Below are positions 2-23,086 of a stretch of DNA of 64,000 nucleotides, piece after piece. Location of the stretch: positions 1-64,000 of the IMG/VR virus record IMGVR_UViG_3300007609_001486; one strand, written 5' to 3'. Position 1 is the stretch's first letter; every line of letters begins with the position of its first letter. Under the pieces are notes generated by a model, which was given only the letters and a program-made list of their open reading frames with translations, did no database searches and was not told where the DNA came from. Both the position numbers and the translations under genes were made by a program. Origin of the DNA: a virus.

Positions 2-1114
2 ACATTAGAAAATCCTGAATACACTGTTAAGGGAAACGATCCTTTATTTAATGCAGGAGTAGCACCAGAATACAATCCAATTCAAACAATAGATCCAAAT
101 TTAGATCTCACAATCGTGGATTTCGATACAGGAAATCCCATAGAAATTTCAGAACAAGAAAAAAAGCAGAATGCAAATAAGATAGTCAAAGAATTAACTA
201 AACAGGGAATCACTGACAAAAGAGAACAGGCAAATCTTTTAGCTGTCGTAGAAACCAAAAGTAAATTAAGTCCCCGTGCTGTAAAAAATTACAGTAATGC
301 ATCTGTGCAGGATATTCGCAGTGAATTTGGGTCAAGGATTGACGATATATCAGATACAGAGTTAACAAATCTAAAAGACAACCCTTCAGATTTCTATGAC
401 GAGGTGCTGAAAGATGTAGGTGGTAGCGAATATCAGGGAAGGGGATTTGTTCAACTTACGGGTCGAGATAATTATGTAGAAGTGGGCAATAGATTAAACA
501 TGGATCTTGCTAATAATCCTGAACTTGCATTTGATACAGACACTTCTGCAAAAATAGCCGCCGATTTTTACAAAGACCAAAACTCAAAAACCAATCTCAA
601 AAGCATAAGAAATTTGTTTAGTTCTATGTTTAGTTTTGATCCATTTACAACTACCGACCAATCCCTGCAATCTGGCGGCAAATCTATGCTGGAAAAAATA
701 CAGGCTTTAAGCGATTCCTGGTTAAGCCGATTAGAAAGTGCAGATCCTGTTCAGTTGTCCAACACCACTACTGAGATTGTGCAAGATAGAGATGGAGGCC
801 TCAGAGGAACTAGTGATAAGCCATTGCCAACAGGAAGAAGTTTACCTAGCCCTAATAATAATTTAGACATTGACGACAGTCTTTTAAACGAAATAGATTC
901 ACTGTCAGATAGTCCGTATAATGAACTTCTTGCACAAGAATATCTGGGCGAAGACGATCAAGGTAATATTATAGATATAAACACAGGTGAAATTTTTGGG
1001 GAGAAGCCTCTTGACAGCGAAATAGTCTATGACACAGAGGGTAATGTGTCTTTAAATAGATCAGGTTGGCGATTTGTTAATAACGGAAGCGGAGCAATAG
1101 AAGAAAATGTATAG
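2..1114 (+). CDS. GH19-type lysozyme/chitinase-like protein, 5'-truncated by window
   Basis: The reading frame is open to the left edge, so the gene begins outside the window; the GTG at 116 is only an internal codon. The middle of the visible part resembles glycoside hydrolase family 19: a glutamate in VVETKSKLS (about nt 245-260), then YQGRGFVQLTGRDNY and LANNPELAF (about nt 430-540), the GH19 substrate-cleft signature. Family members cut chitin or the glycan strands of peptidoglycan. The C-terminal third is acidic, Gly/Ser/Asn-rich and unrecognised. The gene overlaps the next one, a gp5-like hub gene, by 8 bases (ATGTATAG), so the product is probably a tail-associated lysin used at infection. 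I see no holin beside it, which argues against a free endolysin, but that is inference. Confidence 0.75.
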   Translation, partial: TLENPEYTVKGNDPLFNAGVAPEYNPIQTIDPNLDLTIVDFDTGNPIEISEQEKKQNANKIVKELTKQGITDKREQANLLAVVETKSKLSPRAVKNYSNASVQDIRSEFGSRIDDISDTELTNLKDNPSDFYDEVLKDVGGSEYQGRGFVQLTGRDNYVEVGNRLNMDLANNPELAFDTDTSAKIAADFYKDQNSKTNLKSIRNLFSSMFSFDPFTTTDQSLQSGGKSMLEKIQALSDSWLSRLESADPVQLSNTTTEIVQDRDGGLRGTSDKPLPTGRSLPSPNNNLDIDDSLLNEIDSLSDSPYNELLAQEYLGEDDQGNIIDINTGEIFGEKPLDSEIVYDTEGNVSLNRSGWRFVNNGSGAIEENV

Positions 1115-3869
1115 CTATTCACGTACCACAGTTAAAGATGCTCCGATTAGAGGATCAGGACCATACGAGGCAATGATAGTAAATCATTTAGATCCTTACA
1201 TGCAAGGCAGCTTAGAAGTAGAACTTCTACGAAGAAATAGTGCAGCGAATTCGCCGCAACGCAGTGGGCAATTGGTTGTAGTAAAATACCTGTCTCCTTT
1301 TTATGGAGCTACTCCAGCTTCGGGTCTCAAAGAAAACGACGGATATGAAAACACCCAAAAGAGTTACGGGTTTTGGGCGGTGCCGCCAGATTTTGGCACA
1401 CGTGTGTTAGTAATCTTTGCAGAGGGCAATCCTGCTTACGGTTATTGGATAGGTTGTATACAAGACAGTAACATGAATTTCATGGTTCCTGATGGGAGGG
1501 CAAGCACAGCTGCCACTACTGATGCCACACCCGGCGAACTCCAAGGTAAAAAACTTCCAGTTGGTGAGTACAATAAAAAGTTAGAAACTGGCGGCAAAAT
1601 AGATCCTAATTTCTTTGACAAGCCCTACAATAAAGATTTCACCGGCGTATTGCAAACACAAGGGCTTCTGGATGATGAAGCTCGCGGAACAACCACGACC
1701 AGTTCAAGGAGAGAAGTTCCTAGCATGGTATTTGGGATAAGCACGCCCGGACCGTTGGATAAGCGCAGAGGCTCTCCCAAAGCAAAATACGGAACTACAG
1801 AAGATAGCGTAGAAATTCCATATAATAGATTGGGCGGATCCAGTTTTGTAATGGACGACGGTGATGAAAAATTCATCCGTGCAACTCATGCAGAAGATGG
1901 TCCTCCTATATACATTAATAGAACTAGAAATGAAGGCGGCGGCGACGAGACAATTCCTCAAAATGAACTCACACGAATCCGCACACGCACCGGACATCAA
2001 ATACTGTTACACAATTCAGAAGACTTAATTTATATAGCAAACTCCAGAGGCACTGCCTGGATAGAACTTACTTCTGACGGAAAGATTGATATTCATGCCC
2101 AAGACAGCATCAGCGTAATGAGTGATAATGATATAAACTTCACCGCCGAGCGTGATTTCAACGTTGACGCTGGCAGAAATGTTAACATCAAAGCCAGTGC
2201 TCGTTGGAGTGATTTTAAAAGCGTGGAAGAAGATCTTGAAAGCGGTAGAGTACAGATAGAAAGTGCATATAACACAAATCTACATGTGGGCAGAGATTAC
2301 AAGATAACAGTAAAACGAGATAAGCACCTATATATCGAAGATGAATATAAAACCAACGTAGGAGCAAGTATTAACACTAGCAGCGGCAGCGACATAATGA
2401 TGAAAAGTGCAGGAAGCATACATACAAGTGCTGGCGGAAGTGTTTTTACAACCAGCGACGGTAGCACACATAATATAACTGCTGGAGATATGTACACTAA
2501 AGTCGAAGGAAAAATACATAACCGTGCAGGAGAAACAATACAGACAAATGCAGGAACAGATATTCATACTATAGCAGGTGATAATATTTACGTCAAAACC
2601 TTGACAGGTGAAATTCACAGCATTGCAGAAACAAATGCTTACACAAGAACAAAAACTGGGGACATGCATCACATAGCCGAAGGGGGTATTTTTACAGAAG
2701 CAATTACACTGGGAATTCATAATACCGCTGCAGTTGATATTAGGAATGCCGCAGGCAACACCATTGATCTACAAGCTGGCACTTTGATAGCAGGCGACGC
2801 AGCGCAGATACATTGGAATAGCAACAAGTCTGACACAGCTATAATTGCACAAGAGGCCTCGGATGCAGAAGCAGCCAAATATGCAGTGCAAGCAGAAGAC
2901 CCAAAAAGTGATGCAGAACCTGTGAAACCTTTGCCTACTATTACACTGCCGTATGTGATGCCAGGTGTTGATCAGCCTATTCCTTATCCTAGTATTTTAG
3001 CAAGGGCGCCTCAGCACGAGCCATGGCCCCATCATGAAAATCTCAATCCCCTATCTTTCAAGCGTGACCAAACGGATAGGGAAGCAACTGGAGCATTAGT
3101 TACAGCCGATAGATTTGCTACTCCAGATACTTTTTTAAAGAATAAAACTATTGGCGAGTCTACTATACGAGTTATGGGCACCGGCGGCAATCTTAGCTCG
3201 CAAAACGTACCAGAAGACGGCGACGGAACGGGCTCCGACTATAGAAATAGTGACAGCTTTGATGATTCAGCCGGAATTGGCGAAGGACAAATTGATCCTA
3301 GGCTAAAAAATGAATCAGAAGTTACCGGATCGACGGATTTCGGTGAAGAAGGAACAGACAAATCAAACCTCAAATACGAAAACAAAAATGCGACTAGAAA
3401 TCTAGCACTTGAACCTGCTCTTGAAAACCTGTTAATTAAAGTAGCCACAGAGTTAGACGTCACAGCACACATAACAAGTGGGGGTCAAATGCCGTATGAC
3501 GAGTGTATTGCACGTGGTGGATATAAAGCGCAAAATTCCAAAAAATGGTACGTGGGCGGCAAAGCAGTGCGTACAGGATCAACAAGACACGACGGTGGAG
3601 CCGCCTGCGATCTTTACATTACCCGAGATGATGTGCAAATTCCAAGTAACAATCCTATATTCAACAAATTTGTAGAACTGTTTATGAAGTACGGCGGCAG
3701 AGCAGGAGGATCAAGTCCCGCTTATATGGGCCCATATGTAATGCATCTTGATATTGTAGGCTCAGACCGAGGGGGCGGCATTGTTTGGTTAAGCACAAGA
3801 GATTTTGAAAGGTCATTGCGCAAAGGACTTGCCCAGCAAACTGCGCCCATAAAGAGTGCATTTGTGTAG
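1107..3869 (+). CDS. 5: gp5-like baseplate hub/spike with C-terminal M15-type peptidase domain
   Basis: Residues about 15-125 (GPYEAMIVNHLDPYMQG ... FGTRVLVIFAEGN ... YGYWIGCIQD) match the OB-fold of T4 gp5/VgrG-type spikes. Residues about 320-570 are a run of short repeats with regularly spaced Gly, Ser, Ala, Ile and His (IHTSAGGSVFTTSDG, IHNRAGETIQTNAG), as expected for the trimeric beta-helix needle. After a linker, residues about 785-890 carry STRHDGGAACDLYI (H828, D835) and YVMHLDIVG (H880, D882), the zinc-ligand pattern of M15/VanY-type D,D- or L,D-peptidases. In T4 gp5 the enzyme domain is a lysozyme between OB-fold and needle; here it is a peptidase after the needle, and a GH19 protein is encoded just upstream. 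The start overlaps the previous stop by 8 bases. Confidence 0.85.
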   Translation: MYSYSRTTVKDAPIRGSGPYEAMIVNHLDPYMQGSLEVELLRRNSAANSPQRSGQLVVVKYLSPFYGATPASGLKENDGYENTQKSYGFWAVPPDFGTRVLVIFAEGNPAYGYWIGCIQDSNMNFMVPDGRASTAATTDATPGELQGKKLPVGEYNKKLETGGKIDPNFFDKPYNKDFTGVLQTQGLLDDEARGTTTTSSRREVPSMVFGISTPGPLDKRRGSPKAKYGTTEDSVEIPYNRLGGSSFVMDDGDEKFIRATHAEDGPPIYINRTRNEGGGDETIPQNELTRIRTRTGHQILLHNSEDLIYIANSRGTAWIELTSDGKIDIHAQDSISVMSDNDINFTAERDFNVDAGRNVNIKASARWSDFKSVEEDLESGRVQIESAYNTNLHVGRDYKITVKRDKHLYIEDEYKTNVGASINTSSGSDIMMKSAGSIHTSAGGSVFTTSDGSTHNITAGDMYTKVEGKIHNRAGETIQTNAGTDIHTIAGDNIYVKTLTGEIHSIAETNAYTRTKTGDMHHIAEGGIFTEAITLGIHNTAAVDIRNAAGNTIDLQAGTLIAGDAAQIHWNSNKSDTAIIAQEASDAEAAKYAVQAEDPKSDAEPVKPLPTITLPYVMPGVDQPIPYPSILARAPQHEPWPHHENLNPLSFKRDQTDREATGALVTADRFATPDTFLKNKTIGESTIRVMGTGGNLSSQNVPEDGDGTGSDYRNSDSFDDSAGIGEGQIDPRLKNESEVTGSTDFGEEGTDKSNLKYENKNATRNLALEPALENLLIKVATELDVTAHITSGGQMPYDECIARGGYKAQNSKKWYVGGKAVRTGSTRHDGGAACDLYITRDDVQIPSNNPIFNKFVELFMKYGGRAGGSSPAYMGPYVMHLDIVGSDRGGGIVWLSTRDFERSLRKGLAQQTAPIKSAFV

Positions 3870-3881
3870 GTAAATAATGTT

Positions 3882-4319
3882 ATGAGTTCGCTAGAAAAAA
3901 ATCTATATAAAAGAATAATAGTTCCTGGCAAGCCAGAGAAACCAAAACCTAGCACATCATATAGAGGATTTTCTACTATAAACGATGCGGCTGATAAATT
4001 TGCTCTGTATGATTTCGAATTGATAAAGCAAAATATCATAAATCATTTTCATATTCGCAAAGGAGAAAAATTAAGCGACCCAGAATTCGGTACTATAATA
4101 TGGGACATGTTATACGAGCCGTTCACGGACGCAGTAAGAGATGCTGTCTTGGATAATGTCACAGAAATCTGTAATTATGATCCTAGGGCACAAGTTGACC
4201 AAATTCTTGTGGATAGCTACGAAAATGGCATAGAAGTTGTGTGTTTCTTATCATATCTCCCCTTTAATATATCTGAACAATTGCAATTCAGATTTGATCA
4301 AGCCGCCGCATTAGATTAA
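3882..4319 (+). CDS. 25: gp25-like baseplate wedge protein
   Basis: A 145-residue protein of the GPW/gp25 family, the wedge component related to lysozyme-like sheath-initiator proteins of contractile systems. Visible features are KGEKLSDPEFGTIIWDMLYEP (residues about 60-80), matching the family signature in which a short acidic/Gly motif is followed by PEFGT and a hydrophobic helix, and the preceding I..NI..H...RKGE. The length is typical. It sits 12 bases after the hub gene and 52 before gene 6, the order 5-25-6 seen in marine T4-like phages. In the virion it nucleates sheath assembly with gp6 and gp53-type partners; that role is taken from the family. Confidence 0.92.
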   Translation: MSSLEKNLYKRIIVPGKPEKPKPSTSYRGFSTINDAADKFALYDFELIKQNIINHFHIRKGEKLSDPEFGTIIWDMLYEPFTDAVRDAVLDNVTEICNYDPRAQVDQILVDSYENGIEVVCFLSYLPFNISEQLQFRFDQAAALD

Positions 4320-4339
4320 ATGCTAGTTTAATTTTTGCT

Positions 4340-4347
4340 GATAAATA
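4340..4347 (+). promoter_or_regulatory. T4-type late promoter upstream of gene 6
   Basis: GATAAATA matches seven of eight bases of the T4 late promoter consensus TATAAATA and ends 24 bases before the gene 6 start, with AAAAGGA as ribosome site between them. Late promoters of this class have only the -10-like element and need the gp55 sigma-like factor. Confidence 0.6.
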
Positions 4348-4371
4348 TCTTATATTAAAAGGATTATCTCT

Positions 4372-7300
4372 ATGTCTTCTACTGATAGACAATCACGGTT
4401 ACTAGTAACCGAAGATTGGAAGAAAATATATCAAAGTTTCAGAAATGCGGACTTTCAAAGCTACGATTTTGACAATCTCCGCAGAACAATGATAAACTAT
4501 CTTAGACAGAACTATCCTGAAGACTTTAACGATTACATAGAAAGCTCTGAATATCTTGCACTGATTGATCTAATAGCATTCCTAGGACAAAATCTTTCAT
4601 TCAGGGTTGATCTAAATGCCAGAGAAAATTTCCTCGAAACCGCAGAGCGTAGAGAAAGCGTTTTAAGATTAGCCAAACTTATATCTTATAATCCTAGCAG
4701 AAACAAACCCGCAAATGGATTATTGAAGTTCGATACGGTAACGACCACAGAATCTGTCAAAGACAGCACTGGTTTGGATCTGGCAGGAACCACAGTAACG
4801 TGGAACGACAGAGCAAATCCTAATTACTTTGAGCAGTTTATCAAAATAATAAATGCGGCCCTGCCACAAGGGGGCGGAGTAGGCAGCCCGATCAAAACAG
4901 CAGATATACAAGGCATAAGCACAGAACAATACAGATTTAATGCCCTTAACACTGACATACCCTCATATGGTTTTAACAAACCAGTAGAAGGCCTTACCAC
5001 TAGATTTGAAGTTGTAAGCACTACTCTAAACGGAAACACAATTTTGGAAGAACCTCCTTTACCTGGAAACAGTCCTAGTTTTCTATACAGAGACGATGGT
5101 CAGGGTGCAGGAAGTTCTAATACTGGATTCTTCATGCATTTCAGACAAGGCACTCTAGAAAGTTCAAATTTCAACGTGCAAAATCCAATTCCTAATCAAG
5201 TTGTTAGCATAGATGACGAAAACATTAATAATTCTGATATTTGGGTGTATGGCACTGATTCCAATGGATTTGAAACTACTTTATGGACAAAATTAGATTC
5301 AGTAGAAGGAAACAATATTATCTACAACAGTATCTTCAAAGATACAAAAAATGTCTATTCGGTATCCACTAGGACTAACGATAGGATTAATTTGGTATTT
5401 TCTGATGGTGTTTTTGGTAATTTGCCGTCCGGCGGTTTCCGCATTTATTATAGAACCAGTGATAACAGGAACATGATAATCAGCCCAAGTGCTGTAACAA
5501 ACGTAAACATTGAAATACCATATATTAGCAGAGCAAACAGACAAGAAATACTCACAATAGGCCTCAGCCTCAAAACTACTGTTAACAATTCTCGACCAAG
5601 CGAATCTAATGCTGATATCAAAGCGGATGCCCCGTCAACCTATTATACGCAAAACAGATTGATAACAGCCGAAGACTATAACATAGGACCGCTAGGTATC
5701 GATCAAGATATCATTAAGACCAAGACAGTAAATAGAATCAGCAGCGGAATCAGCAAATATTTGGATCTAAGAGACCCTACTGGAAAATATTCAACAACAA
5801 AATTATATGCCAGCGACGGAGTAATCTATAAACAGGAATATACAGACAAATTTAATTTTGATTTTGTCACCCAGGCAGATATAGAAGGAGTTGTATATAC
5901 ACAACTTGAGCCTTTGATAAACAGCGAAGAAATTAAATCCTTTTATCAACAGAATTTTTCAAGACAAGATGTTACAGAGCTTAATGCTGTTTGGAGACAG
6001 ACCACAAATTCCACAAATAGAAGCACAGGATATTTACAAGAAATTCTAAACAGTAATCAGTTGTTAACCTCTGCCGCAGGAGTGCCGATTTCAAATGCTC
6101 AATTTTATCCTGTTGGATCGTTTGCCACAAACAATTTACAGTTTTTTGAAGTAGGTGCTCTTGTAAAGTTCAAAGCACCTCAAACTACCTCCACCGACGG
6201 CGCAATTGTTCAGCAGTATTTTTTAGAAAACAACACGCTCACAGTTGATTCCAACGCTTCCGGATCAAGTTTATACAAATGGGCAGTTGTGCAAGGAGTG
6301 AACGGTGACGGAACATTAATAGATGAAGACGGATTTGGAGCAATTACTTTCAATGATGTAATACCAGAGGGTTCTAAGGTCACTGAGATATTGCCCAGGT
6401 ATGTTAGAAATGTAGGAGCAGATACCAAAAGACAAATCATTGACAGAGCGTTTGCTTACAGAGACTTCGGCTTAAGATACAGTCAGACAGAACGGCAATG
6501 GAAAATTATCACCGCTGAAGACATTAACACTTTTAGTGGATTTTCTCTACAGACTGAAGGAAACACCATAGGTGAAAATCTTGACACAAGTTGGTTGTTC
6601 TATTTTCAGACTGATGGGTCTAAGTACACTGTTACATATAGGGCTCTTAGGTATGTTTTTGAAAGCGCAGACGAAATAAAGTTTTATTTTGATAATGCTG
6701 ACAAGATTTTTGACCCCAAAACAGGCAAAACACAAAAAGACAGTATCACGGTGCTGGGCATAAATCCAAGATCTAACTCACCTCAACCTTTTAATAAAGA
6801 TTTTGTATGGAGCATATCAAATGCATATAAAGATGCAGGAGGTTACAACGACACGCGAAAAATACAGTTGGCATTGTTTGACAGCGACGATGACGGCATC
6901 GCAGACAATCCTGATATTTTTTCCGATATAGTGAATGAACGTGCAAAAATAGAAAATAGATTCATCTTCCAGGAAAAATATTCAAATTCCGACGGAGTAG
7001 AAGATTTTAGATATGTGCCTAATCCAGGAATTAAAGTCTTACAAAATGAAAGCACTCCAATACAGCCCAGCGCAGAATCAGATGGGCAAGTTTTCTATTT
7101 TGTAGATTTTGATCTCTTCAAGGTTTTAGATAAAACACAAAATAACATGACAGTTAGCACCAATTACCGTGCATTTGTAGGTAGAGATAGATTGAAGTTT
7201 GAATATGTTCATGTTGCTGATCAAAATTATAGAATAGACCCTGCACGCAGCAACATACTTGATACTTTTTTGCTCACAAGGGGCTATGATAATGAAATGC

Positions 7301-8355
7301 GCAGTTATTTGCGCGGAGAAATTAATAATAAACCATTGCCGCCCAGCACCGACGAATTGTTTAGATCTTACGGTAGTGAAATTAACAAAATCAAAAGTAT
7401 AAGCGACGAGGTTGTATATCATCCAGTTAAGTATAAAATACTTTTTGGAAGCAAAGCAGACAGCGATTTGCAAGTTACCTTTAAAATTGTCAAGAACAGT
7501 GAGGTAGCCGTTAACAATAATGAACTAAAGGCAAATGTAATAGATCTAATCAATAGATATTTTTCTATAGAAAACTGGGATTTTGGTGAAACATTTTATT
7601 TTCAAGAGTTAGCAACCTATGTAATGAATAATCTGAGTCCAGATCTAGTCAGCTTCATCATAGTGCCGAAAAGAGCAGATCAAGGATTTGGAAGCTTATT
7701 CGAAATTAAATCTGAAACTGACGAAATATTTGCCAATGGTGCCACAGTGAATGACATCGAGATTATAAATCAACATACTGCTAGCAATCTGCAGAGTAAT
7801 GGCAAAGTTATCACCAGTATTTCATCTAATGCCACAGGAATACAAACACGCTCTCCTAGTGATCCAACAACCTTGCCTAGCACTACAGCAGGATCAGTGC
7901 TAGAAACCGGCAACACAGCGGGTACACTGAATCCTCCTTCACCACTGGAAGAACTAGATCTGTCTGAAAACGCAGATCCGTTTGAAGACGCAATCGGAAA
8001 TACTGCTCCAATAGATCCGACATATAATTTAAGAGTCATTCAAGTCAATAACACCAGCATTGCGGAGGACAATACAGGACCATTTGTTATACAAGAAGGT
8101 GATTCGTTTGTGATACAGCTGACAACCACTGATATATCCAACGGACAGACTATACCATACAATATATCTGGTTTAGATACATTTGATCTCAATGAGGCAC
8201 CGCTCACTGGACAATTTGTGATACAAAATAACACAGCTATAGCAGGATTCCAGTTGAGTGACACAATTGCATCTGATCGTCCTACAGTTTTCAAATTGAC
8301 TTTGAATGATCAACAAGTTTCCATAGAATTACCCATAGCAGGTTTACAGGCATAA
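4372..8355 (+). CDS. 6: gp6-like baseplate wedge protein (baseplate J-like)
   Basis: The N-terminal 110 residues (SSEYLALIDLIAFLGQNLSF, RVDLNARENFLETAERRESV, LAKLISYNPSRNKPANG) are a strong match to T4 gp6, the dimeric wedge protein of the inner baseplate ring that belongs to the baseplate J superfamily. The middle (NRLITAEDYNIGPL, about residue 424, and ISKYLDLRDPTGKYS) also fits the gp6 core. At 1,327 residues it is about twice T4 gp6 (660). The extra length is a long insertion-rich central part and a C-terminal tail (after about residue 1150) rich in Thr/Ser/Asn/Pro that may be an added Ig-like or surface domain. It follows gp25 and precedes the giant structural gene by 12 bases. Confidence 0.9.
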   Translation: MSSTDRQSRLLVTEDWKKIYQSFRNADFQSYDFDNLRRTMINYLRQNYPEDFNDYIESSEYLALIDLIAFLGQNLSFRVDLNARENFLETAERRESVLRLAKLISYNPSRNKPANGLLKFDTVTTTESVKDSTGLDLAGTTVTWNDRANPNYFEQFIKIINAALPQGGGVGSPIKTADIQGISTEQYRFNALNTDIPSYGFNKPVEGLTTRFEVVSTTLNGNTILEEPPLPGNSPSFLYRDDGQGAGSSNTGFFMHFRQGTLESSNFNVQNPIPNQVVSIDDENINNSDIWVYGTDSNGFETTLWTKLDSVEGNNIIYNSIFKDTKNVYSVSTRTNDRINLVFSDGVFGNLPSGGFRIYYRTSDNRNMIISPSAVTNVNIEIPYISRANRQEILTIGLSLKTTVNNSRPSESNADIKADAPSTYYTQNRLITAEDYNIGPLGIDQDIIKTKTVNRISSGISKYLDLRDPTGKYSTTKLYASDGVIYKQEYTDKFNFDFVTQADIEGVVYTQLEPLINSEEIKSFYQQNFSRQDVTELNAVWRQTTNSTNRSTGYLQEILNSNQLLTSAAGVPISNAQFYPVGSFATNNLQFFEVGALVKFKAPQTTSTDGAIVQQYFLENNTLTVDSNASGSSLYKWAVVQGVNGDGTLIDEDGFGAITFNDVIPEGSKVTEILPRYVRNVGADTKRQIIDRAFAYRDFGLRYSQTERQWKIITAEDINTFSGFSLQTEGNTIGENLDTSWLFYFQTDGSKYTVTYRALRYVFESADEIKFYFDNADKIFDPKTGKTQKDSITVLGINPRSNSPQPFNKDFVWSISNAYKDAGGYNDTRKIQLALFDSDDDGIADNPDIFSDIVNERAKIENRFIFQEKYSNSDGVEDFRYVPNPGIKVLQNESTPIQPSAESDGQVFYFVDFDLFKVLDKTQNNMTVSTNYRAFVGRDRLKFEYVHVADQNYRIDPARSNILDTFLLTRGYDNEMRSYLRGEINNKPLPPSTDELFRSYGSEINKIKSISDEVVYHPVKYKILFGSKADSDLQVTFKIVKNSEVAVNNNELKANVIDLINRYFSIENWDFGETFYFQELATYVMNNLSPDLVSFIIVPKRADQGFGSLFEIKSETDEIFANGATVNDIEIINQHTASNLQSNGKVITSISSNATGIQTRSPSDPTTLPSTTAGSVLETGNTAGTLNPPSPLEELDLSENADPFEDAIGNTAPIDPTYNLRVIQVNNTSIAEDNTGPFVIQEGDSFVIQLTTTDISNGQTIPYNISGLDTFDLNEAPLTGQFVIQNNTAIAGFQLSDTIASDRPTVFKLTLNDQQVSIELPIAGLQA

Positions 8356-8367
8356 GGATAATAATTA

Positions 8368-11300
8368 ATGTCATCTAATGAACAAAATGAATTTGGATCA
8401 CCAACTCCAGGAGACAACAATCGTCAGAGTGCTCGTTTTCTCCCTAGATTCTTTAGATCAGAAGCCAATCTAAAATTTCTACAAGCAACAGTTGATCAGT
8501 TGACCCAGCCGGGTGTGGCAGAAAAACTGAGCGGATTCTTTGGTAGGACTATAGCGAAAGGATTTAAGTCTGAGGATAATTATATCGGTGATGTCAACAA
8601 AGACAGATTGGATTATCAGTTCGAACCTGCACTGGTTATCAAAGACGTATTTGACAATGTAACGTTCTACAAAGATTACAATGATTATATCAACACATTG
8701 AAGTTTTTTAATGTAAACACCGCTAATCATGACAAAATTAATCAACAAGAAAGTTATCCGTGGAATCCTAACATAGACTGGGACAAATTTGTAAATTTCA
8801 GAGAGTATTATTGGTTACCAGACGGTCCACTCAGCGTTCCGGTTCAAGGACAGGCTAGAGATGTCACTAGTACATTTACGGTAACCGTAGAGGAAGCTGA
8901 TGGAGATTTTGCATTTGTTTTTAACGGCAAAAATACAAGAAATCCAAGCCTTAGATTATTCAGAGGACAAAAATATAGATTTGAAATAGACACACCAGGG
9001 CATCCTTTTGCCGTTGCAGTAACAAGAAGTTTCACACCGGGCAACGCCGTAATTGTTGCCACACGAGAAGGTATTCGCCAAGACGGGTTATTTGATAGTC
9101 AACTGTATGGGGAAACCTACGACATTGGAGATTGGTTGGTTTTGCCACAGAGCGGTAGTGTTACATTTGAAGACGACGAAAATGTAAGCACTTTGTATCC
9201 TGATGGAATCCGCTACATTTCTGAAGCCGGCAACGAAATTGCTAATGTCTATATTGAAAAAGGAATACTGGAATTTACAGTGCCTTTTAATTCTCCTGAT
9301 CGTCTTTATTATATTTCACAAAACAGCATAGATACCAGCGGTTTATTCAAAATATACGATATCGAAGAAAACAGCTTTCTTGATGTAGAAGAAGACATTA
9401 TAGGAAAAAAATATTACACAAGCTCTAACGGAGTTGAATTTACTAATGGTTTAAAAGTGTCCTTCAGGGGAAATACACAACCAGAAGAATACAGCTCGGG
9501 CGAATACTATGTAGAAGGTGTCGGTAATTCAATTAAGTTGATCCCCAAAGAAAATTTAACAATAACCACATCATTTAACAATGATGTCCTACAACCGTTT
9601 GACGAGCAAGCGTTTGACGAGCTACCTTTTGGGTCAGCAAAGTCTTATCCGATCAAAAAAGATTATCTCACAGTCAGTCGAGAAAGTGCAGATCTTAATG
9701 CATGGAGTCGCAGTAATAGATGGTTTCATAGAACAGTCATAGAGGATAGTTTTAGATATAATGAAATTCCTATTGACTTGAAAGACAGCCAAAAAGCCAA
9801 AAGACCGATAATTGAATTCGAGCCCGGTTTAAAGTTATATAATTACGGAACATTTGCAAAACAATTTGTAGACGTAGTCGATACATTTACCAAAGATGTT
9901 TTTTCTACCATAGAAGGCTCTGTTGGTTACAACATTGACGGTGTTGATCTAATAGAAGGCATGAGAGTTTTGTTTACTGCTGATACGGACGTCTTGGTAA
10001 ATGGAGCAATATATGAAGTGAAATATGTAAACATTGACAACGCAAACAGAATCACCCTTATACCAACACTAGATACACTGCCACAACTTTTTGAAAATGT
10101 CTTAGTTCAGCAAGGTAAAACCTATGCTGGTAAAATATTCTTTTATAATGGATCTACATGGAAACTTGCACAAGACAAAACAGATGTTAATCAGGCACCT
10201 TTGTTTGACTTATGTTGTCCCCAAGGTGAGTTTTATGGCGATACTGAAATTTTTAATTCCACTTCATTCAAAGGTTGCAAGGTATTTTCTTACAAGCAGG
10301 GATCTGGAGCGGTTGACCCGGAGTTAGGATTTCCACTGAGTTATAGAAATATCAATAATACCGGGGATATAGTATTCGACTTTAATTTACTTACAGACAG
10401 TTTTAATCTGCAGATTAATGAAGAATTAGTTACAGTAAAAACCGATACAGCATTCTTAAGAAAATACTCTGACAGAACAAATTTCGTTTATCAGAATGGT
10501 TGGAGCAGTGTACCTGTTATCAGCAAACAAAAGGTTCTAAGACAATACACTGTAAGTCCTAGCCAAAGATCTGTTTTTGAAATAGATGTATATGAAAATG
10601 CAGCAATACTAGAAGATCTAGAAGTAAGCGTTTTTGTGAATAATGAAATTAGAACTGACTACAGCATTGATGTTTCCGGCGATCGTGTTGTGGTTCGTTT
10701 TACAAATTTGTTAGAGCTTGATGACGTAGTCTTATTGAAGACGCATTCATCTGCAGCTAAGAACAACACCGGACTTTATGAAATACCTAGCAATCTTGAA
10801 AAAAATCCTCTAAATGAAGACATTGTTGATTTTACTCTTGGTGAAGTGATAGATCATGTAGGCAGTATGATAGAAGATATTCCTGATTTTGCAGGAACAT
10901 TTCCTGGAAATAGCAATATTAGAGACCTGGGTAACTTGGATATATACGGAAAACGCTTCCTTAAACATTCCGGTCCTTGGAACCTGCCTGCATTTAGCAT
11001 CACCAGCAAAGAATTTAACATTGTAAGAGCAATCGAATACGGCAAAACAGAATACAGCAAGTTTAAAAGAAATTTTATTAAGATTGCAACTGATCTAGGA
11101 TTCACTGGAGAAACCAAACAGCACGTTGATAAAATATTAACAGAACTTAATTTAGAAAAAGTAAGCACACAACCATTTTATTTCTCTGACATGGTAGGCT
11201 ATAAAAGCGGCAACTCCATTCAATACGAAGTAATAGACGAAGAGAATCCATTTTATAATCTCACAGAGTTGTTTGCATTAGATAATCTCAACAATCAAGC

Positions 11301-14300
11301 GGTTAACATTTATTTAAACGGTGCTCAATTGTTATTCGACAGAGATTATTATTTCACCGCAGAAGGTTTTGCATATATCGACGCTGGTCAAAAACTTGGC
11401 GACACGATTGAAATTGTTGAATATAGCTCCACAGATGGAAGTTACATTCCGCCTACGCCTACAAAATTAGGACTTTATCCAAGATTTGAACCTGAAATAA
11501 CCATAGATGAACAGTGGTTAGACAGCACCGCAGATAATGTTGATGCCAGGATAGCCCATGCAATTTATGGAGAAAATCTCAATAATCATTTGCAAAGAGG
11601 TTGGTTTTATCCAGTTTATCTCGATCGCAAAACTGCCATGCAAAATGATGCCAACGAAACTGTTGTGGTGTTACGTCTTAAAGGATCAAGCAAAGTCTTT
11701 TATGCACCGGCTAATAAGTTTGTAGCAGGATCGCTTACTCCCACAGAAGAATACAAAGAATATCCTATTGGCCATGCATTTGTTACCGGACACGACGGAA
11801 GTTTTACAAAGTGTTATAAAGATTATAGAGATATTCTTTGGTTGGAACTTGAAAAAAGAATATACAACAACATCAAAATCGATTATGCAAAGACCCAGAT
11901 AAACATTCATGATTACGTGGGAGGAAGATTCCGTGACACCGGATTGACGGATTCAGATATAGACAGGATTCTCATTAAAGATTTCACAGCTTGGAATAGA
12001 ATCGTCAAGGCTGATTACACAGAAAATAAGTTTTTCCAAAATCAAAATCAATTCACTTTCAATTACAGTCAAACAAGCTCTGTGGTTGATGACAGAAATC
12101 TTCCGGGATTCTGGAGAGCCGTTTACAAAGATGCATTTGATACCGATCGTCCGCACACACATCCTTGGGAAATGCTAGGGTTTACTCGCAAGCCTATCTG
12201 GTGGGAGACACAATATGGAGCACCACCGTACACAAGCAACAACACAATTCTGTGGCGCGACCTTGAAGACGGCGTTATTAGAAAGCCCGATAGCACACCT
12301 GTTTTAGATTCTAAATATACTAGACCAGGTCTTAGAGATTTTTTACCTGTTGATTCGCAAGGACAATTGAAGCCTCCAGTAAGCGCAAATTATGCAAAAA
12401 ATATTATTGTGCGAAATCTTGATGACAGTTTCAAGTTTGGAGATAATGCTCCTGTAGAATCTGCATGGAGAAGAAGTTCTGAGTATGCGTTTTCTCTCAT
12501 AAAGGCAATTTTATTGAATCGTCCTTCAGACTTTTTAGGAAAAGGTTTTGATGTTGCAAGAATACAGAGAAATCTAGCAGGACAATTTGTTTACACGGAA
12601 ACTGGAAAAAATACCCAATTGACTAATTTGGTATTTCCTAACACATACTCGGACAATTTCCGAATACCCACAAGCGGGCTTGTAAATTACATATACAATC
12701 TCATAGGAAGCAATGTATTAAGTGTATACGATGACTACAAAAACAATATCAAAGCAATAAGAAATCAGCTGGGTTTTAAACTTGGCGGATTCACAGACAA
12801 ACAAAAAATAAATTTAATTTTGCAAAGCAAAAGCCCCAGTGAGGAAAATTCACAAGGTTTATTTGTACCACAAGATAATTTTGAAATATTCCTTAACACA
12901 AGCAGTCCTATTGACAATGTAAATTACAGTGGTGTAATAATCGAGCTACGGGCCGATGGATTTATTGTGCAAGGCTATGACTCTGAAACGCCCATATTCA
13001 AATACTACAAGACCATCTCCACGCAAGGCGACCCTACTGTGGTTGTAGGCGCAGAAGCAGAAGATGTTGTACAATGGACACCTAACAGGGTGTATGTCAA
13101 AGGACAAATTGTAGAAAATGCGTTTGCATATTACAGAGTTACCCAGGATTTTACCAGTGGCTCTTCATTTGACCTAGAAAATCTAGCAAAATTAAGCGAA
13201 CTTCCTGTAACAGGAGGCCAGCGTGCACAGTTTCGAAATGGTTTTGATAAAAATTTCATACTGGAATTAACATACGGATCCAAGTTAGCAGATGTGCAAA
13301 GTGTGGTGGACTTTATATTAGGCTACGGCGAATACCTCAAAGATCAAGGATTTATTTTCGATTATTTTGATACAGATTTTCAAAAAGTTGAAGATTGGAA
13401 GACTGCTGCCAAAGAGTTTTTATTCTGGAGTGCCCAAGGTTGGTCAGAGGGCACGGTCATTAGCGTTAGTCCTGCAGCTTACAAACTCATGCTGAAAAGA
13501 GACTTCAGTGTAGCAGATGACATTTTTGATCGATTTTATGAATACAGCTTGCTATCAGAAAACGGGAATCCTTTGCCTAGGGAATTTGGCACCATTCTCA
13601 GAGAAAAAAACAGTTTTAGTTTGTCAGTAGATAATACCGACAATGGCATATATAATCTCACTGTGCCCTTGGTACAAAAAGAACATGTGGTGTTACTGGA
13701 TAATAAAACAGTTTTCAGTGATATATTATATCAACCATACAGCGGTTATAGACAAGAAAGAATCAAGGTTCTAGGTTTTAGAAGTGACAACTGGAACGGA
13801 AGTTTGAATATTCCAGGGTTTGTTTTTGATGATGCAAAAGTCACAGAATGGGAGCCGTGGCAAGATTACGAAATAGGCAGTCTGGTTAAACACAAAGAAT
13901 TCTTTTATGTTGCTATAGAAACAGCATATGGGTCTGCAGAATTTAACTTCAATTTCTGGAATAGGCTATCGAATCAACCCGAACCGCAACTGATGACAAA
14001 TTTTGATTTCAGAGCAAATCAATTCACAGACTATTACGATGTTGACAGTATAGGATTTGACAGAGACCAACAGAGACTTGCACAACATCTTATTGGCTAC
14101 CAAAAAAGAGATTACCTGGCTAACATAATTAATGATGACGTAAGCCAATTCAAATTCTATCAAGGATTTATCAAAGACAAGGGAACAAGAAATGCTATAG
14201 ATAAATTGTTTGATGCTCTGGGCGGTAACGAAAGCGGCCTAGATTTCTACGAAGAGTGGGCTGTACAGAGCGGTATTTACGGACAGTCTGATAAAATACG

Positions 14301-17300
14301 GCAATTAGGTATACCTTTAAAAGAAGATAAAATACTGGAAAGTCCACAAGGTATAGAACTTGTAGATTATATTCCCAATGACATTTTTGATACAACATAT
14401 AGAGTTCGTCCCGATGATCTTATAACACGACCTGAAGATTTTAGTATAAATTGTTTCCCTACAAAACAGCTAGATGAATATATACTCACAGGCGGATATG
14501 TTCATGAAGATGACATAGACTATAAAATTGAAAGTGTATTAGAATTGCAAAATGTAGATGTAAACCTTATGAACATAGGTGAATACATTTGGGTCACTGA
14601 CGTTTCTCCTAATGATTGGAACGTGTTTAGAATTATAAATTCCAATATCACTGTTAATTCGCTTACTGTAAATCCTGAACAAAATACGTTGGGAGAAACC
14701 ACAGCTACAATAGAATTTGCATCCACCGAGTTACCTGATATACGAGAAAATGACGTTATTGCTATATTGGGTGCACAATTATACGATGTAACCGGTTTTT
14801 ACCAAATTACAGAAGCAGTGTCTGGAAATATTTTAGTTATCGAAATTCCAGAAGATAACAGCTTCCAAGATTTTGTTGATGAAGAATTTGAGTGTGTGGT
14901 CCTTAAGAGCGAACGGGTAGACTCTTTTGCTAATTTTAATGACGTTGCCCAAGAATCGAGACTGGATGATCAAAAAGTTTGGGTGGATTCGTTTAGATCT
15001 GATCTTGAATGGGCAATGTTGCAAAACACAAAAGTCTATTCTAAAATTACAGAGCAAATTAATCCTAATGACATAGAAGATTCCAGTGCCGCGCAGGACG
15101 TTTCTAATAGATTCGGAACCGATATTGCTAGTTCAAACGATAATAGATTTGTTTTTGTAAGTGCACCTGGATTCGCAGACGGAGAAGTATACTTCTATAG
15201 AAGAAATCAAGACACAGACGAATTAGTATTAAACGATTCTATAAACAATCCTGGATTTAATTTATATCAATTAGAACAAAGCAATTTTGGTCAAAGCATT
15301 TCTGTCAGTGACGACGGAGAATATCTTGCGATCGGTGCACCAGCTGCCAGCGAAGTAAAGACAAAATACAAAAAAGATTGGTTATCTACTAGAGAATATG
15401 CAAAAGGCGATATTGTGAGACATAAAGGCTCACTGTGGCGTGCACAGAGGACCATACTTCCGGAAGTCGGTGACAAAAAATACAAAACATTTGACAGTCA
15501 CTATTTAATGGAAGATAGGAAGAATGACAGTGCAGTTTTGCAAACGCTAATAACTGGTTCTCCTTTGTTGCCAGGCCGTCAGGTTAACCACCTACTTGTG
15601 AGAGCACCTGCTGATTTGTACTTGGCATCGACGCCCGGAGATTGGTTAAAGCTAGCATGGAATGAGTTTACTTATTTTAACGGACAAATAGATACAGCAC
15701 GTTATCCTTTTGACAACACCATACAGCAAATAGGATTCGACGGCCAAAATAATTTCCTAGATGGCTTCCATCAAATCAAAGAAAAAGTTGACAAGATATT
15801 TTTCTTACCACAATTTGATATTTTACTTCAAGTAGGAGACACAGTGCAAACCAACAGCGGTTTTGCAATAGTTTGTTATGTGGATTTTAGATTGGGCGAC
15901 ATGACAATATACCTTAAGGATATACGCGGCAATTTCGATGCCACGGGCACACTTGAAAGATTTAATTTTAGAGATGCCAGTGTTGAGATCATTGGCGAAT
16001 ATCAAGAAATAGATTATGGCTTTGTTGAGGATTTCAATGGTTTTTGGGCTATTGCGTTGGACTCTTCCGATGAAGGTATTGCATTTAACGACAATAACAC
16101 AAACTATTTTACCGACGATGTTTATTTTGACGAAGGCAAAGGCCTAGTTATTGCTGATTTAATCAAAGAATCGGTATATCCTGCTCAGAAAAACAGAAAC
16201 ACATACCTCAACATCACTGATGAAATAAAGCGTCTAGGGACCGTTACAACCACAAACTTGAAAGCAAGCATGTTACATAATCTAGGCGAATACTGGGTAG
16301 CACGTATGTCTACTTCGGTCACTGCGGAACTTTCTCAAAGAGACACAGTTGGATTTTATCTTAACGACGAAATATCAACACCTTATTTTGACCGAGTGGC
16401 AGAAATAGGTCTTGAATTTAGCCAACTTAATAAGATTGATCATGTCATTGAAGACATATGGGACGGGTACATTGATGTGACCGTTAATGCAGAAGATCCT
16501 AATACACGCGAACTTTTGTTATTTGCAGAAGGCGATATCGTGCGAGACAAACAACGCCCATTTAATATTTTCCAACAACCTGCAGATATTCCTCTTGATT
16601 TAGGCAACGAAGCAGAAGTTGTGTTTGTAAAAAATAATATTGGTGGCAGATTTGATAGACAAAGAATTTATATTAGAATACTCAACGGAAATTGGAACCT
16701 GCAAAATAATATCGCTGTAACAAATATTTCCAGAGAAAGACAGGAAAATGGAAACCTCGTAGAGAGGATTATGGGAGACATTGTTGATTACAGGAATGAT
16801 GTAGTGGTTCCAAACAGCAATGCAGGTATAGGAAAATTTTTAGTAGTAACCAGCGAGACTGTTTCGGGAGTAGATTTTGAAATTCAAGATGCAGAATATC
16901 ACATCAACAGTTTTTCAGAGTTAGATGCTCCGGCAATACCACCAAGTGTACCAAGCAGTTTAAACAGAGATTACGAACAGGTCTTTAATATTTCTGCTAA
17001 CACTGCTGGCATTGCAGGAGAGCAAAATACCGGTGCGGTTGTTATTTTAAGAAAGTCTGGACCAAATGCATATTCGTTAAGCAAAGTGATTACCAGTGAG
17101 AAGAATTTCGACATTGAGAATGCAGAATTTGGCAAGCAAGTGCGACTTGTTCAAAATGGTATAAATTACAGCCTGTATGTTTCCAGCAATGCCAATAACA
17201 GCGAATCTGGCTTTGTGGAAATTTTTGAACATGGGCCTGTTGCGGATTCGAATTTCAAAGGAACGTGGAATCCTGATTTGCCATATGTCAAGGACGACGT

Positions 17301-20300
17301 AGTGTTGCATCTGGGTAATTACTATCTAGCAAAAATTAACATTAACACACAAACACAAACAAGTATATTTAACACGAATTTTTGGACGGAAATTTCTTGG
17401 AGAAGATCAACCGATATAGATTTTAGAGGACAATGGACCCCCGGCGAAGAATACATAAAAGACAGTGTTGTGCAATATGAAAATGAGCTATACGTTGCGC
17501 TGACAAATATATCCTCCGCAAACAGTCAACAAAATCCTCAATTAGACAGCGACAGATGGCTGAGAAATAGCGAGTCTATCGTGATTGACGGATCTATAAC
17601 CGATTCCAGTGTGGACGAATTTGCAGAGGAGTTTGCAATAAACAACAGCGGCGACGTTTTAGTAATTAAATCCAAAACACTGTCACCTGATCCTGTCACA
17701 CAATTTTCGATTTATAGAAAAGCTCTGTCAGGAAATTATGTAAAACAAGATGCCACAATCAACATTCAATCTAGCGATGTAAATTTTGACCTTGACTATG
17801 AAGGCAACACATTGGCACTGGGTATTCCAGACAATAATGACGCAGGACAGAATGTTGGAAAGTTGATCATTTACAACTTGTCAGATCAAAGCCAAACTGT
17901 GATATATCCACCTGCCATTGAAAACCTAAGAAGCTTCGGTTACATGGTAGCATTTAATCAAACCAGCTTAATTGTAGGTGCAATTGATTTAGTTAGCGAC
18001 CAAGGAAAAGCTCTGGTTTACGAAGTACTGAGAAACCAATTTATATACAGCGAGATAATTGCATTTGACCGCCCTGTGGATTCAACTTCACAAAAATTGC
18101 ATGGAAGGAACAATCACATTTATGTTGGTGTACCTAACAGTGAAAATAATCTGTTTACGGGCTCATTTGTGGACTTTAGAAAAGATCAAAACAGTTTGGG
18201 TTGGACGGTTGCAAGGGAATTGATTCCATCGGTTGATCTAGAAAAAATCAACGGCGTATTCCTATACAACAAGAGAACAGAACAAAAAATTACTAGCCTT
18301 GATTACATAGATCCTGTACAAGGAAAAATTGCAGGACCAGCAGAACAAAACATCAGTTACAAGGTTCCTTACGATCCTGCACAATACAATGTAGGAGATA
18401 CGGCCAACGATGTTAACTGGGCAGAAGAACATGTGGGCAAGATATGGTGGAACACCGGCAATGCTAGGTTCACTTACGCATACCAAGGTGATATAAATTA
18501 TCAACGGTCCAATTGGAACGAACTACAACCGGGCGCAACCGTGGATGTATATGAATGGGTAGAATCTAATTTATTGCCCAGTAGTTGGGACAGTATAACA
18601 AACACCGCTCAAGGGGATGTGCTAGGCATTACAGGTGTAACACTATACGGCAACGACAGATACAGCAAACGTTTTACCTATGACAGAGAAAGTCAGACAT
18701 TCAGAGAAGTGTACTATTATTGGGTAAAGAACAAAAGAACAGTGCCTAATATAGAAGGCAGAACGCTTTCTGCATTGGATATTGCGAGGCTTATTGCTCA
18801 ACCAAGGGAACAAGGCTATCGTCATGTAAATTTCTTGTCCGACAACAGATTGGTTTTAAACAACTGCAAGCCTTTGATAGAAAACGAAGATGTGGTTTTG
18901 AATATCGATTATGTTTTGGACAAATTGGATGACCAAAACACTCACAGTGCCTATCAGATAATCACAGATGGTTTAGCATCCAGTGTTCCGCACACTGACA
19001 TCGAACAGAAATGGTTTGACAGTTTGATAGGCGTAGATAAAAATCAAAAGTCTGTTCCAGACATCAGCCTACCTGAAAATCAAAAATACGGTGTACAAAC
19101 AAGACCTCGCCAGTCAATGTTTAGAAACAGACCTGAGGCACTTAAACAGGTTATTACGAGAACAAATATTGCGTTAGAATCTAACTTGATTGTAGATGAC
19201 AGAGACATCAGTGATTTGTTACAAGCAGACGAGATTCCTAACCAAGCGTCTGGTCTTTACGATCTAAGTGTTGATACAAAAGACGAAATGCTGCTTTTAG
19301 GCGTTAAGTTCACACAAGCCGAATTAAAGCCGGTTATAATAAACGGAAGAATTATAAGGGTAGAAATCATAAACAGAGGTAGAGGTTATAAACTTCCGCC
19401 TTCTTATGTTGTGCAAGGAACTGGTTCAGAAGCAGCAATTGACCTTGATATCAATAATCTTGGCCAGATAACTGCTGCCAGGGTAACCAATCCTGGAAAA
19501 AATTATGATGGTAACACAAAAATAACAGTAAGGCCTTTTGCGGTTTTGGTCAACACCGATGAGGATGCACAAGGCAGATGGTCCATTTACAATTACCAAT
19601 CTGACAATGATAGTTGGTTTAGAACACGTATTCAAACCTTCGATGTAAGCAGATATTGGGAGTATGCAGATTGGTATGATCAAGGATTCAATCAACTCTC
19701 AGAAATTGATCATTATGTTGATGCACAGTATCAACTAAATGCGTTAGAGGATAACATAGGGGATACAATTAAAATAGCCAATGTGGGATCTGGAGGATGG
19801 TTGCTTCTCAGAAAAATAAACAATACCGATCAAAACTCCGCTGTGGACTACGAAGTAGTGGGCAGACAGAACGGAACAATCCAGTTCAAAGCCAGCTTGT
19901 ATGATTACAATCTAGGAGGTCCAGGCTTTGATAATCGCAGTTTTGGAGAATTATTCTATGATGATACTCCCACTACCGAACTGAGGATTATTCTAGAAAC
20001 CATAAGAGATAAATTGTTTACAGGAAATCTGCGCACAGAATATAACCAGCTATTCATAGCCAGTCTACGTTATGTTTTGAACGAGCAAAAAAATCCAGAT
20101 TGGTTTTTCAAAACCAGCTTTGTGAAATTAGCCCACTCAGCAGGCACCCTAGACCAAGATTTGACCTATAATTTTGACAACCTTCAAAGCTATGTAGATT
20201 ATGTGAATGAAGTAAAACCGTTCAGTACCGTAGTTAGAGAATTTGTAAGTCATTATACCAAGAATGAAGATTCAAACACTTCAGTGTCTGACTTTGATTT

Positions 20301-22471: not shown

Positions 22472-23086
22472 ATGAACAGTCTAAAAGATTTAAATGGAAT
22501 TTCAGTGCAAGGTCATATAAAAATCTATGATCCGCAGAGCCAAGAAATTTACATCGAAAAAAGAAATGCAATCCATTACGAAAATATGAGTGTGGCCTTG
22601 GCAGAAAGTATTGCTAATCTAGGTCAAGGATTTATCTACGAAATCAGTTTCGGAAATGGAGGAACCAGTGTTGACCCAACCGGAATAATAGCATACTTGA
22701 CTCCTAACAGCACCGGAACCAACGCAGATTTATACAATCAGACATATTCCAAAGTGGTAGTAGATGACGGTACGCTGAACACAAATCCTGCACAGAACTT
22801 TATTGAAACAAGACATGTAAGCGGAACGAATTACACAGATGTTTTGGTAAGCGTGTTGCTAGACTACGATGAACCAGAAGGCCAAGAAGCCTTTGATAAT
22901 GCCACTGATATGGAGAGTAATTTTGTGTTCGACGAACTCGGACTGAGAAGCAGATCCGCCGACCCTAATGGCACCGGTAGGCTTATCACCCATGTGATTT
23001 TTCATCCCGTGCAAAAAAGTCTCAACAGACAAATTCAAATCGATTACACTGTGCGAATTCAAAGTCTGAGCGGAGGTAATCTATAA
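22472..23086 (+). CDS. small virion-associated protein of unknown function
   Basis: A 204-residue protein that I cannot assign to a named family. Its N-terminus (ISVQGHIKIYDPQSQEIYIE) and the core IYEISFGNGGTSVDPTGIIA are beta-rich, with no signal peptide or membrane segment and no cysteines, which suits a baseplate or fibre-base component. The end (LNRQIQIDYTVRIQSLSGG) is a predicted beta-strand pair. It has its own late-type promoter, follows the giant structural gene and overlaps the next fibre-like gene by one base (TAATG), so it is almost certainly translated with the fibre genes. A gp8- or connector-like role is possible but not shown. Confidence 0.7.
   Translation: MNSLKDLNGISVQGHIKIYDPQSQEIYIEKRNAIHYENMSVALAESIANLGQGFIYEISFGNGGTSVDPTGIIAYLTPNSTGTNADLYNQTYSKVVVDDGTLNTNPAQNFIETRHVSGTNYTDVLVSVLLDYDEPEGQEAFDNATDMESNFVFDELGLRSRSADPNGTGRLITHVIFHPVQKSLNRQIQIDYTVRIQSLSGGNL

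Follow-up and report, generated by a model that had tools for sequence, protein, structure and literature searches.

The stretch of DNA analysed here (the window) comprises the first 64,000 bases of IMGVR_UViG_3300007609_001486, an 82,510-base virus contig, and begins with two adjacent open reading frames (ORFs) that have 8 bases in common. ORF 2-1114, which is 5′-open where the record begins, encodes 370 residues of a protein with a glycosidase-type domain, and ORF 1107-3869 encodes a gp5-like baseplate hub of 920 residues. They are followed by gp25-like and gp6-like baseplate wedge genes (Table 1), and with these neighbours, in a virus record, the hub does not lie in a type VI secretion locus. 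An earlier note, made from the letters of the window alone, had described the two ORFs as lying back to back and had placed a peptidase-like domain after the beta-helix of the hub, rather than in the T4 position between OB fold and needle. Both statements hold, and we confirm that the hub continues past its beta-helix into a domain resembling zinc peptidases of the M15/LAS type.

The hub matches the PHROG family of jumbo-phage hubs labelled 'baseplate hub subunit and tail lysozyme' from residue 22 onwards, over a region whose Pfam OB-fold match stays below the cut-off, and it passes the Pfam cut-off for the beta-helix family DUF2345. The Pfam match itself covers residues 316-370, the end of the needle at about residue 600 being placed by composition. 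No lysozyme domain was found by Pfam or PHROG between the OB fold and the needle of the window's hub. By tblastn, the nearest named relatives are the hubs of PA5oct, RaK2, CBB, Atu_ph07 and similar phages; the best rows span hub residues 18-488, and none of the 60 records covers 80% of the query. A tblastn search of 50,697 phage records with the C-terminal 349 residues gave no match at E values up to 1. Between needle and tip lies a neck with the motif HEPWPHHEN, a pattern absent from just 2 of 139 distinct hubs.

The residues named by the earlier note as the pattern of an M15-type peptidase, H828, D835 and H880, are present at these positions and, together with D882, do not vary among the 14 aligned relatives of the 163-residue C-terminus, at identities down to 25%, a conservation that goes beyond chance. 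Among the relatives collected with a hidden Markov model (HMM) of this domain type (type A), the zinc-ligand spacing is standard in 22 of 23 distinct sequences, the exception being L320, in which an insertion lies inside the motif. A PDB search with the profile of the 14 relatives placed L-Ala-D-Glu peptidases on top, weakly (2vo9, E 0.0053; 6akv, E 0.044). The AlphaFold2 model of the tip has pLDDT 87.2 and pTM 0.84, and M15/LAS enzymes head its fold matches: the top five PDB rows of Foldseek are LysB4, Ply500, MepA and, twice, VanY (E 0.023 to 0.53), and the best VIA-align match is the zinc DD-peptidase 1lbu (Z 7.0, root-mean-square deviation 3.2, 101 aligned residues), followed by four L-Ala-D-Glu-type peptidases or endolysins (Z 5.9-6.3) and a Hedgehog complex (5.9), the first clearly unrelated folds appearing at Z 5.6. 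We base the identity of the tip on the motif, the weak profile matches and the predicted fold taken together, and regard the modelled fold as consistent with, if not overwhelming for, an M15/LAS assignment. Within the hub, non-synonymous divergence (pN) of the M15 domain is the lowest in relative L003 (0.048) and the second lowest in L087 (0.086, after 0.064 for the OB region); constraint was compared by pN only, because synonymous sites are saturated and the ratio of non-synonymous to synonymous rates is unusable. The low non-synonymous divergence and the invariant triad speak against degeneration of the tip, and the zinc site is predicted to be intact in the window and non-degenerate in homologues, in agreement with the earlier proposal.

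The gene preceding the hub is truncated in the window, whose ORF holds only the C-terminal 46% of the product; another record, contig L002, which differs from the window at a single one of 9,866 shared bases, carries the full gene, with a product of 809 residues. The L002 version begins with a weak SGNH-like stretch (PF13472, E 0.0004, isolated and below the cut-off), continues with a region matching PHROG 90 'endolysin' (residues 161-374) and ends with a GH19-type region. In the window's ORF, the latter matches PF00182 at E 5e-5, below the Pfam cut-off, and PHROG 181 'endolysin' at E 7e-19, and its model aligns in VIA with 7r6s (Z 20.3), the GH19 endolysin 9eoi (16.4) and the SPN1S endolysin 4ok7 (15.5), so that the predicted GH19 fold is clear. 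GH19 endolysins have two catalytic glutamates nine residues apart, as described for PaGH19Lys (E51/E60; PMC12329726) and for the SPN1S endolysin (E49/E58; PMC8547705). In the window, the first (residue 84) is kept and the +9 position (residue 93) is Ala; the same position is Thr in L003 and L087, and is not Glu in other neighbour-borne copies either. Relatives of the L006, L010 and L013 type, in which the GH104 Glu is intact, have an eroded GRG/QLTG core, which the window's subclade retains. Within the neighbour protein, pN of the GH19 domain is the highest in L003 (0.171) and near the highest in L087 (0.302, with 0.309 for the SGNH-like part).

A profile of the middle region built from 11 relatives matches lambda lysozyme at E 0.0065, after the better-scoring 66-kDa protein 11mn (E 0.0003), and aligns an invariant Glu with the Glu of the lambda WSEG motif, the catalytic Glu19. 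This GH104-like Glu is kept in 47 of the 51 distinct segments that cover the site (three more stop short) and is Asn in L002, L003 and L004, which form the window's subclade, and, separately, in L114. A GH104 profile search of the window's own record gave no match, as expected if this part lies beyond the contig end. For the GH19-type glycosidase that the earlier note had placed next to the hub, the fold is supported and the second catalytic Glu is absent; judged by its residues, the neighbour protein of this phage is not supported as a working glycosidase. The change in L114 is a second one, outside the window's subclade, and the same Glu-to-Asn replacement arising twice may not be chance. 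Across relatives, the gene before the hub encodes from about 190 to 930 residues, sometimes without a recognised enzyme, and most copies keep the stretch DRYDF-x-TG-x-K, possibly the segment by which the protein docks to the baseplate.

To place the tip among its homologues, we drew on eight IMG/VR scans and a few loci from other genome searches, giving 467 loci, 463 hub ORFs and 178 distinct hubs, 168 of them with a closed 3′ end; most scans were confined to their best 80 rows, with more in the collection for several queries, and the survey is therefore a sample whose counts are not frequencies. Tips were typed by regular expressions and local HMMs at E 1e-5. M15-type domains alone form the tip of 54 of the 168 hubs (31 of M15 type B, 20 of M15-like type A and 3 of M15-like type C). 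Glycosidase-type tips are VgrG3-like (type F, 49), GH19 (19), SLT-like (type D, 17), GH24 (type G, 8), GH104-like (type H, 8) and SleB-like (type E, 1); one hub each carries C plus SleB-like, A plus Phage_lysozyme2, and CHAP, and nine have no tip. Representatives exceed the Pfam cut-off for M15_4 (L027, E 1e-14), the VgrG3-like C-terminus (L131, E 6e-28), GH24 (L159, E 1e-18), Hydrolase_2 (L066, E 2e-8), Phage_lysozyme2 (L320, E 2e-26) and CHAP (L364, E 6e-7); the SLT-like type and tip-borne GH19 fall below it, and neither type A nor type C matches Pfam. On a tree of the hub core, from which the tip was excluded, the tip type changes at least 17-18 times, and on these sequences the tip is an exchangeable slot for wall-hydrolase-type domains. 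Two hubs depart from the common layouts. In L320, the Phage_lysozyme2 domain precedes a type A domain, the first motif of which is split by the insertion. In L176, the position of the T4 lysozyme, between OB fold and beta-helix, is taken by an SLT-like domain, and the C-terminus, with an H-x6-D...H motif, matches nothing in Pfam, nor at a meaningful E value in PDB; this hub is a possible link between the T4 layout and the tip layout.

The content of the adjoining genes is reciprocal to the tip. Among the 54 hubs with M15-only tips, a separate GH104-like ORF accompanies all 43 that have at least 2.5 kb upstream and 4 of the 11 with a shorter flank, and in most of these relatives its catalytic Glu is intact. 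No glycosidase of the types searched accompanies any of the 102 glycosidase-tipped hubs as a separate ORF within the stored flanks, including the 81 hubs with 2.5 kb of sequence upstream. An M15 domain of type A or B lies on another ORF in 21 of the 102, namely beside GH104-like (8/8), GH24 (6/8), SLT-like (6/17) and SleB-like (1/1) tips, and beside none of the VgrG3-like (0/49) or GH19 (0/19) tips. In the complete cases examined, it is the C-terminal part of a protein of about 1,050-1,214 residues encoded one or two genes upstream. A second M15 domain was found in none of the 54 M15-tipped loci. The CHAP-tipped hub has no separate glycosidase, and the hub with type C plus SleB-like domains also has a GH104-like neighbour; of the nine tipless hubs, one is accompanied by a separate SLT-like ORF and another by a separate ORF that is lysozyme-like plus type A. 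Over whole records, GH104-like domains occur in 15 of 15 M15-tipped and 0 of 5 glycosidase-tipped records. M15_4 or type A matches are lacking in all 10 type F records, where M23 and other peptidase families were not searched for. The proposition that both enzyme classes are present in all phages of the group was rejected, given these 10 records and the flanks of GH19-tipped hubs, which are without an M15 match.

Row counts overstate this evidence, because the class of the tip, peptidase or glycosidase, changes only about four times on the hub-core tree. On well-supported branches, the independent pairs that contrast a peptidase tip with a separate GH104 domain all run in the expected direction (3/3 in the 95-row tree and 2/2 in the 109-row tree), and pairs that contrast a glycosidase tip with a separate M15 domain are concordant or uninformative. 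With so few pairs, a sign test cannot reach significance at 0.05. We regard the reciprocity of gene content as a strong pattern in the sequences, without statistical proof.

In our view, the two genes fairly probably constitute the cell-wall-opening module of a T4-related contractile-tail phage, in which the M15/LAS-like tip is the main cutter and the partner binds glycan or is weakly active. The hub would form a spike composed of the beta-helix, the conserved neck and the exchangeable tip; for the tip, we predict zinc binding by H828, D835 and H880, D882 being conserved as well, and cleavage of the peptide part of peptidoglycan after the spike has crossed the outer membrane. The partner, which we infer to reside in the virion, runs from a weakly matched SGNH-like part through a GH104-like domain and a DRYDF-bearing linker to the GH19 fold. 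In the window's subclade, both of its glycosidase domains have lost a residue needed for full catalysis, and it is for this reason that the peptidase would do the main cutting here. Relatives usually pair a peptidase with a glycosidase, and the same domain types occur, by exchange, at the hub tip, in the neighbour gene or on a third tail protein. Domain order, conservation, exchange and the reciprocal gene content are read directly from sequence, the fold and the zinc site are predictions, and we likewise infer the bond specificity, the timing and a functional reason for the pairing. A more tentative extension, which we hold to be possible, is that, in a large group of T4-related environmental phages, the tip behaves as a cartridge under a complementarity rule: each baseplate would have one glycan cutter and, in many lineages, one peptide cutter, the families swapping places between spike tip, adjoining gene and third tail protein with no gain of another domain of the class already present, and the phage of the window would represent a late state, with decayed glycan cutters and the peptidase tip doing the work.

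Several observations weigh against the peptidase tip as main cutter. The fold scores are modest, the best Foldseek match in PDB having E 0.023 and the VIA Z values lying below 8; the Pfam M15 families match none of the 14 tip relatives, and no Pfam family matches the window's 160-residue tip. The comparison of type A with canonical M15_4 tips by hhalign was not significant, and a common ancestry of A and B tips is for this reason unsupported by sequence. Canonical M15 enzymes have an acid three residues before the last His ligand (D/E-x-x-H), and this acid is absent in 21 of 22 type A segments; type B tips have Asp there in 40 of 43. On the side of the partner, PaGH19Lys with the substitution E60Q still lyses somewhat at 1 uM (PMC12329726), so that residual activity of the GH19 domain is possible. 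Finally, the independent contrasts behind the pairing are few, two to three on well-supported branches and four on all branches.

The missing acid and the lack of a Pfam M15 match would also suit a tip that is no enzyme at all, serving instead as a zinc-stabilised cap or binding stem peptides, in a role like that of PAAR tips. We consider this decidedly unlikely, given that E. coli MepK, an annotated peptidoglycan L,D-endopeptidase, likewise lacks the acid at -3 and has H-x-D, a configuration that makes the type A site compatible with activity, and that the slot otherwise holds wall-hydrolase families. The peptidase reading of the tip is probably right. The opposite departure is that of the earlier note, in which GH19 and M15 are both active in this phage and cut glycan and peptide bonds together. 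In its favour, the GH19 fold is clear, and the first Glu, GRG and QLTG are kept in the window's subclade and eroded in sister clades; nevertheless, the replaced Glu of the GH19 domain (Ala, or Thr in L003 and L087), the Asn at the GH104 site and the constraint on GH19, which is among the lowest within the neighbour protein, make this rather unlikely. The idea that both bonds of the wall are cut accordingly divides: it is likely for many relatives, where the M15 tip regularly comes with a glycosidase-type domain on another gene, and doubtful for the phage of the window itself.

The reciprocity itself may be an accident of shared descent, with a small number of ancient events inherited by many related phages, and this we regard as quite possible, if short of an even chance. 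The small number of contrasts speaks for it, as does the fact that 49 of the 102 glycosidase-type tips belong to one family, type F, which grouped as one clade in the 95-row tree and has no M15 match in 10 of 10 records. On the other hand, GH104, GH19 and M15 domains of types A and B lie at the tip in some lineages and in the neighbour in others, no independent pair runs in the opposite direction, and distant isolates have two-domain tips. That the neighbour gene encodes an endolysin for lysis, merely adjoining the hub and without a role in entry, is suggested by the labels of PHROG 90 and 181 and is nonetheless improbable: the gene sits in the midst of baseplate genes, proteins encoded at this position that lack a lysozyme domain retain the DRYDF linker, and the same domains are found fused to the hub.

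In T4 gp5, a GH24 lysozyme lies between the OB fold and a trimeric beta-helix needle. The window's hub shares with it an OB fold, a beta-helix needle and a wall hydrolase-type domain in one chain, near gp25/gp6-type genes, and differs in that its enzyme-like domain comes after the needle and resembles a peptidase; in the survey, L176 alone combines a domain in the T4 position with an M15-like motif at the tip. In its order of spike, DUF2345 beta-helix and C-terminal enzyme-like domain, the hub is a phage counterpart of the evolved VgrG proteins of type VI secretion. One of these, VgrG2b, ends in a zinc metallopeptidase of the HEXXH gluzincin type and is described as an antibacterial effector with an immunity partner (PMC6899460); in contrast, the window's tip is M15/LAS-like and the hub lies in a phage baseplate operon. 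As to VgrG3-type C-termini (PF21277), the VgrG3-like domain itself is found on type F hubs. With the M15/LAS peptidases (Streptomyces albus G DD-peptidase 1lbu, Ply500 2vo9, LysB4, MepK/YcbK), the tip shares H-x6-D and the third His, and resembles them in its predicted fold, and with MepK it shares also the H-x-D without an acid at -3, and it differs from them in lacking a Pfam M15 match and in being fused to a tail spike. Alignment of type A with MepK by hhalign was not significant, a single-sequence phmmer search of PDB with the tip gave one chance match only, and tblastn with the tip of L114 against the 50,697 phage records found nothing at E up to 1. An assignment of type A to Peptidase_M15_3 was ruled out, PF08291 having no match in the record.

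Two activities in one particle or protein are also known from dual-domain virion lysins and, judging by its title, from the type VI secretion effector TseP (8xcl). The lysins of this kind named in one review, CwlP of SP-beta and HydH5, are from phages of Gram-positive hosts, and for virion lysins of Gram-negative phages the same text cites a single demonstrated endopeptidase, that of phi6 (PMC5380687). In the literature searched (including PMC6116005, PMC5380687, PMC7029224 and PMC7824862, and mostly without subscription journals), we found no report of an M15-type domain on the tip of a gp5-like hub or of the reciprocal placement, which is weak evidence of absence.

Among isolated phages, enzyme-like domains past the needle occur, as in the window, in the hubs of Atu_ph07, Phosso and Vibrio 2.275.O, so that two-domain tips exist in cultured jumbo phages. 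In Atu_ph07 and Phosso, a GH104-like domain (E 2e-27 and 9e-14) is followed by an HtrA-like domain, recognised by a PDB match for Atu_ph07 (E 1e-7) and by resemblance to Atu_ph07 for Phosso; the H and S of the Atu_ph07 motifs NAHV and GMSGGP read Q and A in Phosso, whose copy seems to have lost catalytic residues. The Vibrio 2.275.O hub has a LytM/DipM-like stretch (DipM-like, E 0.0015) in a protein annotated as GH24, and the PA5oct and SCTP-2 hubs end at the neck, with no tip domain. Rhizobium phage RHph_TM30 (YP_010671131.1) encodes a type A domain (E 5e-10) in a frame of 1,071 residues annotated as a putative tail protein. It is an unrelated isolate, and its type A protein is perhaps of the kind of the large proteins among the best viral fold matches.

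The T4 spike has served as the model of wall opening by a single lysozyme; here, the wall-opening domain is an interchangeable tip, and peptidase-like tips are as common in the group as several of the glycosidase types. If the complementarity is functional, entry through the walls of many environmental bacteria would need both bonds to be cut, the relation of tip type to host wall chemistry would become testable, and the group would supply many natural spike-borne wall-cutting domains; the two-domain tips of cultured phages are open to such testing. A 2020 study of marine myophages noted an unusually divergent gp5 and offered, as a guess, that it had adapted to the wall of the host (PMC7029224), and exchange of tip domains would offer a concrete mechanism for the divergence reported there.

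Table 1. Positions of the features discussed, in the window and in related records.
Feature	Record	Positions	Strand	Basis
C-terminal 370 residues of the hub's neighbour protein	window	2..1114	+	5′-open ORF; continued upstream by L002:2624-5053
GH19-fold domain, residues 50-261 of the fragment (predicted)	window	149..784	+	AlphaFold2 pLDDT 88.2, pTM 0.82; VIA matches
gp5-like baseplate hub / central spike protein, 920 residues	window	1107..3869	+	PHROG 13211 E 2e-52; tblastn to jumbo-phage hubs
OB-fold region, residues 22-118	window	1170..1460	+	PHROG 13211 match from residue 22; PF04717 at 85-118, E 0.0024, below cut-off
Beta-helix needle (DUF2345 / gp5 C-like)	window	2052..2906	+	PF10106 E 1.5e-7, residues 316-370
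Neck with HEPWPHHEN, motif at residue 637	window	3015..3377	+	precedes the variable tip in nearly all relatives
M15/LAS-like zinc-peptidase domain (predicted), tip, residues 758-920	window	3378..3866	+	AlphaFold2 model, VIA, Foldseek
Predicted zinc ligands H828 and D835, motif RHDGGAACD	window	3588..3611	+	motif, alignment
Predicted third ligand H880 and invariant D882 (H-x-D, cf. E. coli MepK)	window	3744..3752	+	alignment
gp25-like baseplate wedge gene	window	3882..4319	+	PHROG 261 E 9.5e-17
gp6-like baseplate wedge gene	window	4372..8355	+	PHROG 10646 E 7e-297
ORF of 4,692 residues	window	8368-22446	+	weak CBM_5_12
Protein of 783 residues with tail collar domain	window	23086-25437	+	E 2.5e-14
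Radical SAM / class-III aminotransferase ORFs	window	40055-41329, 44718-46037, 51130-52485, 61078-62322	-, +, +, -	ORF scan
Copies with variable pre-hub gene	L002, L027, L131, L066 and others	2624-5053, 4447-5685, 4623-5948, 5266-5976		
ORF with the second GH104-like Glu-to-Asn change	L114	7736-10954		
Hub with SLT-like domain in the T4 position	L176	5551-8016		
Hub with Phage_lysozyme2 and type A domains	L320	6953-10276		
Type A domain protein of RHph_TM30	L470	72-3284		E 5e-10
Hubs ending in HtrA-like serine protease domain	L471 (Atu_ph07), L472 (Phosso)	6800-9397, 6806-9940		

Beyond the baseplate wedge genes, the 4,692-residue ORF gives a CBM_5_12 match for the whole protein (E 2e-9), with no single stretch passing, and Vibrio 2.275.O has an annotated CBM 5/12 protein near the corresponding position; in marine myophages, VrlC replaces gp7 (PMC7029224). 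Further along the window lies the protein with a tail collar domain. A scan of 10 ORFs in the window's right half gave three radical SAM proteins, two of them with SPASM-type domains, and one class-III aminotransferase, a density of such enzymes that is unusual for a phage.

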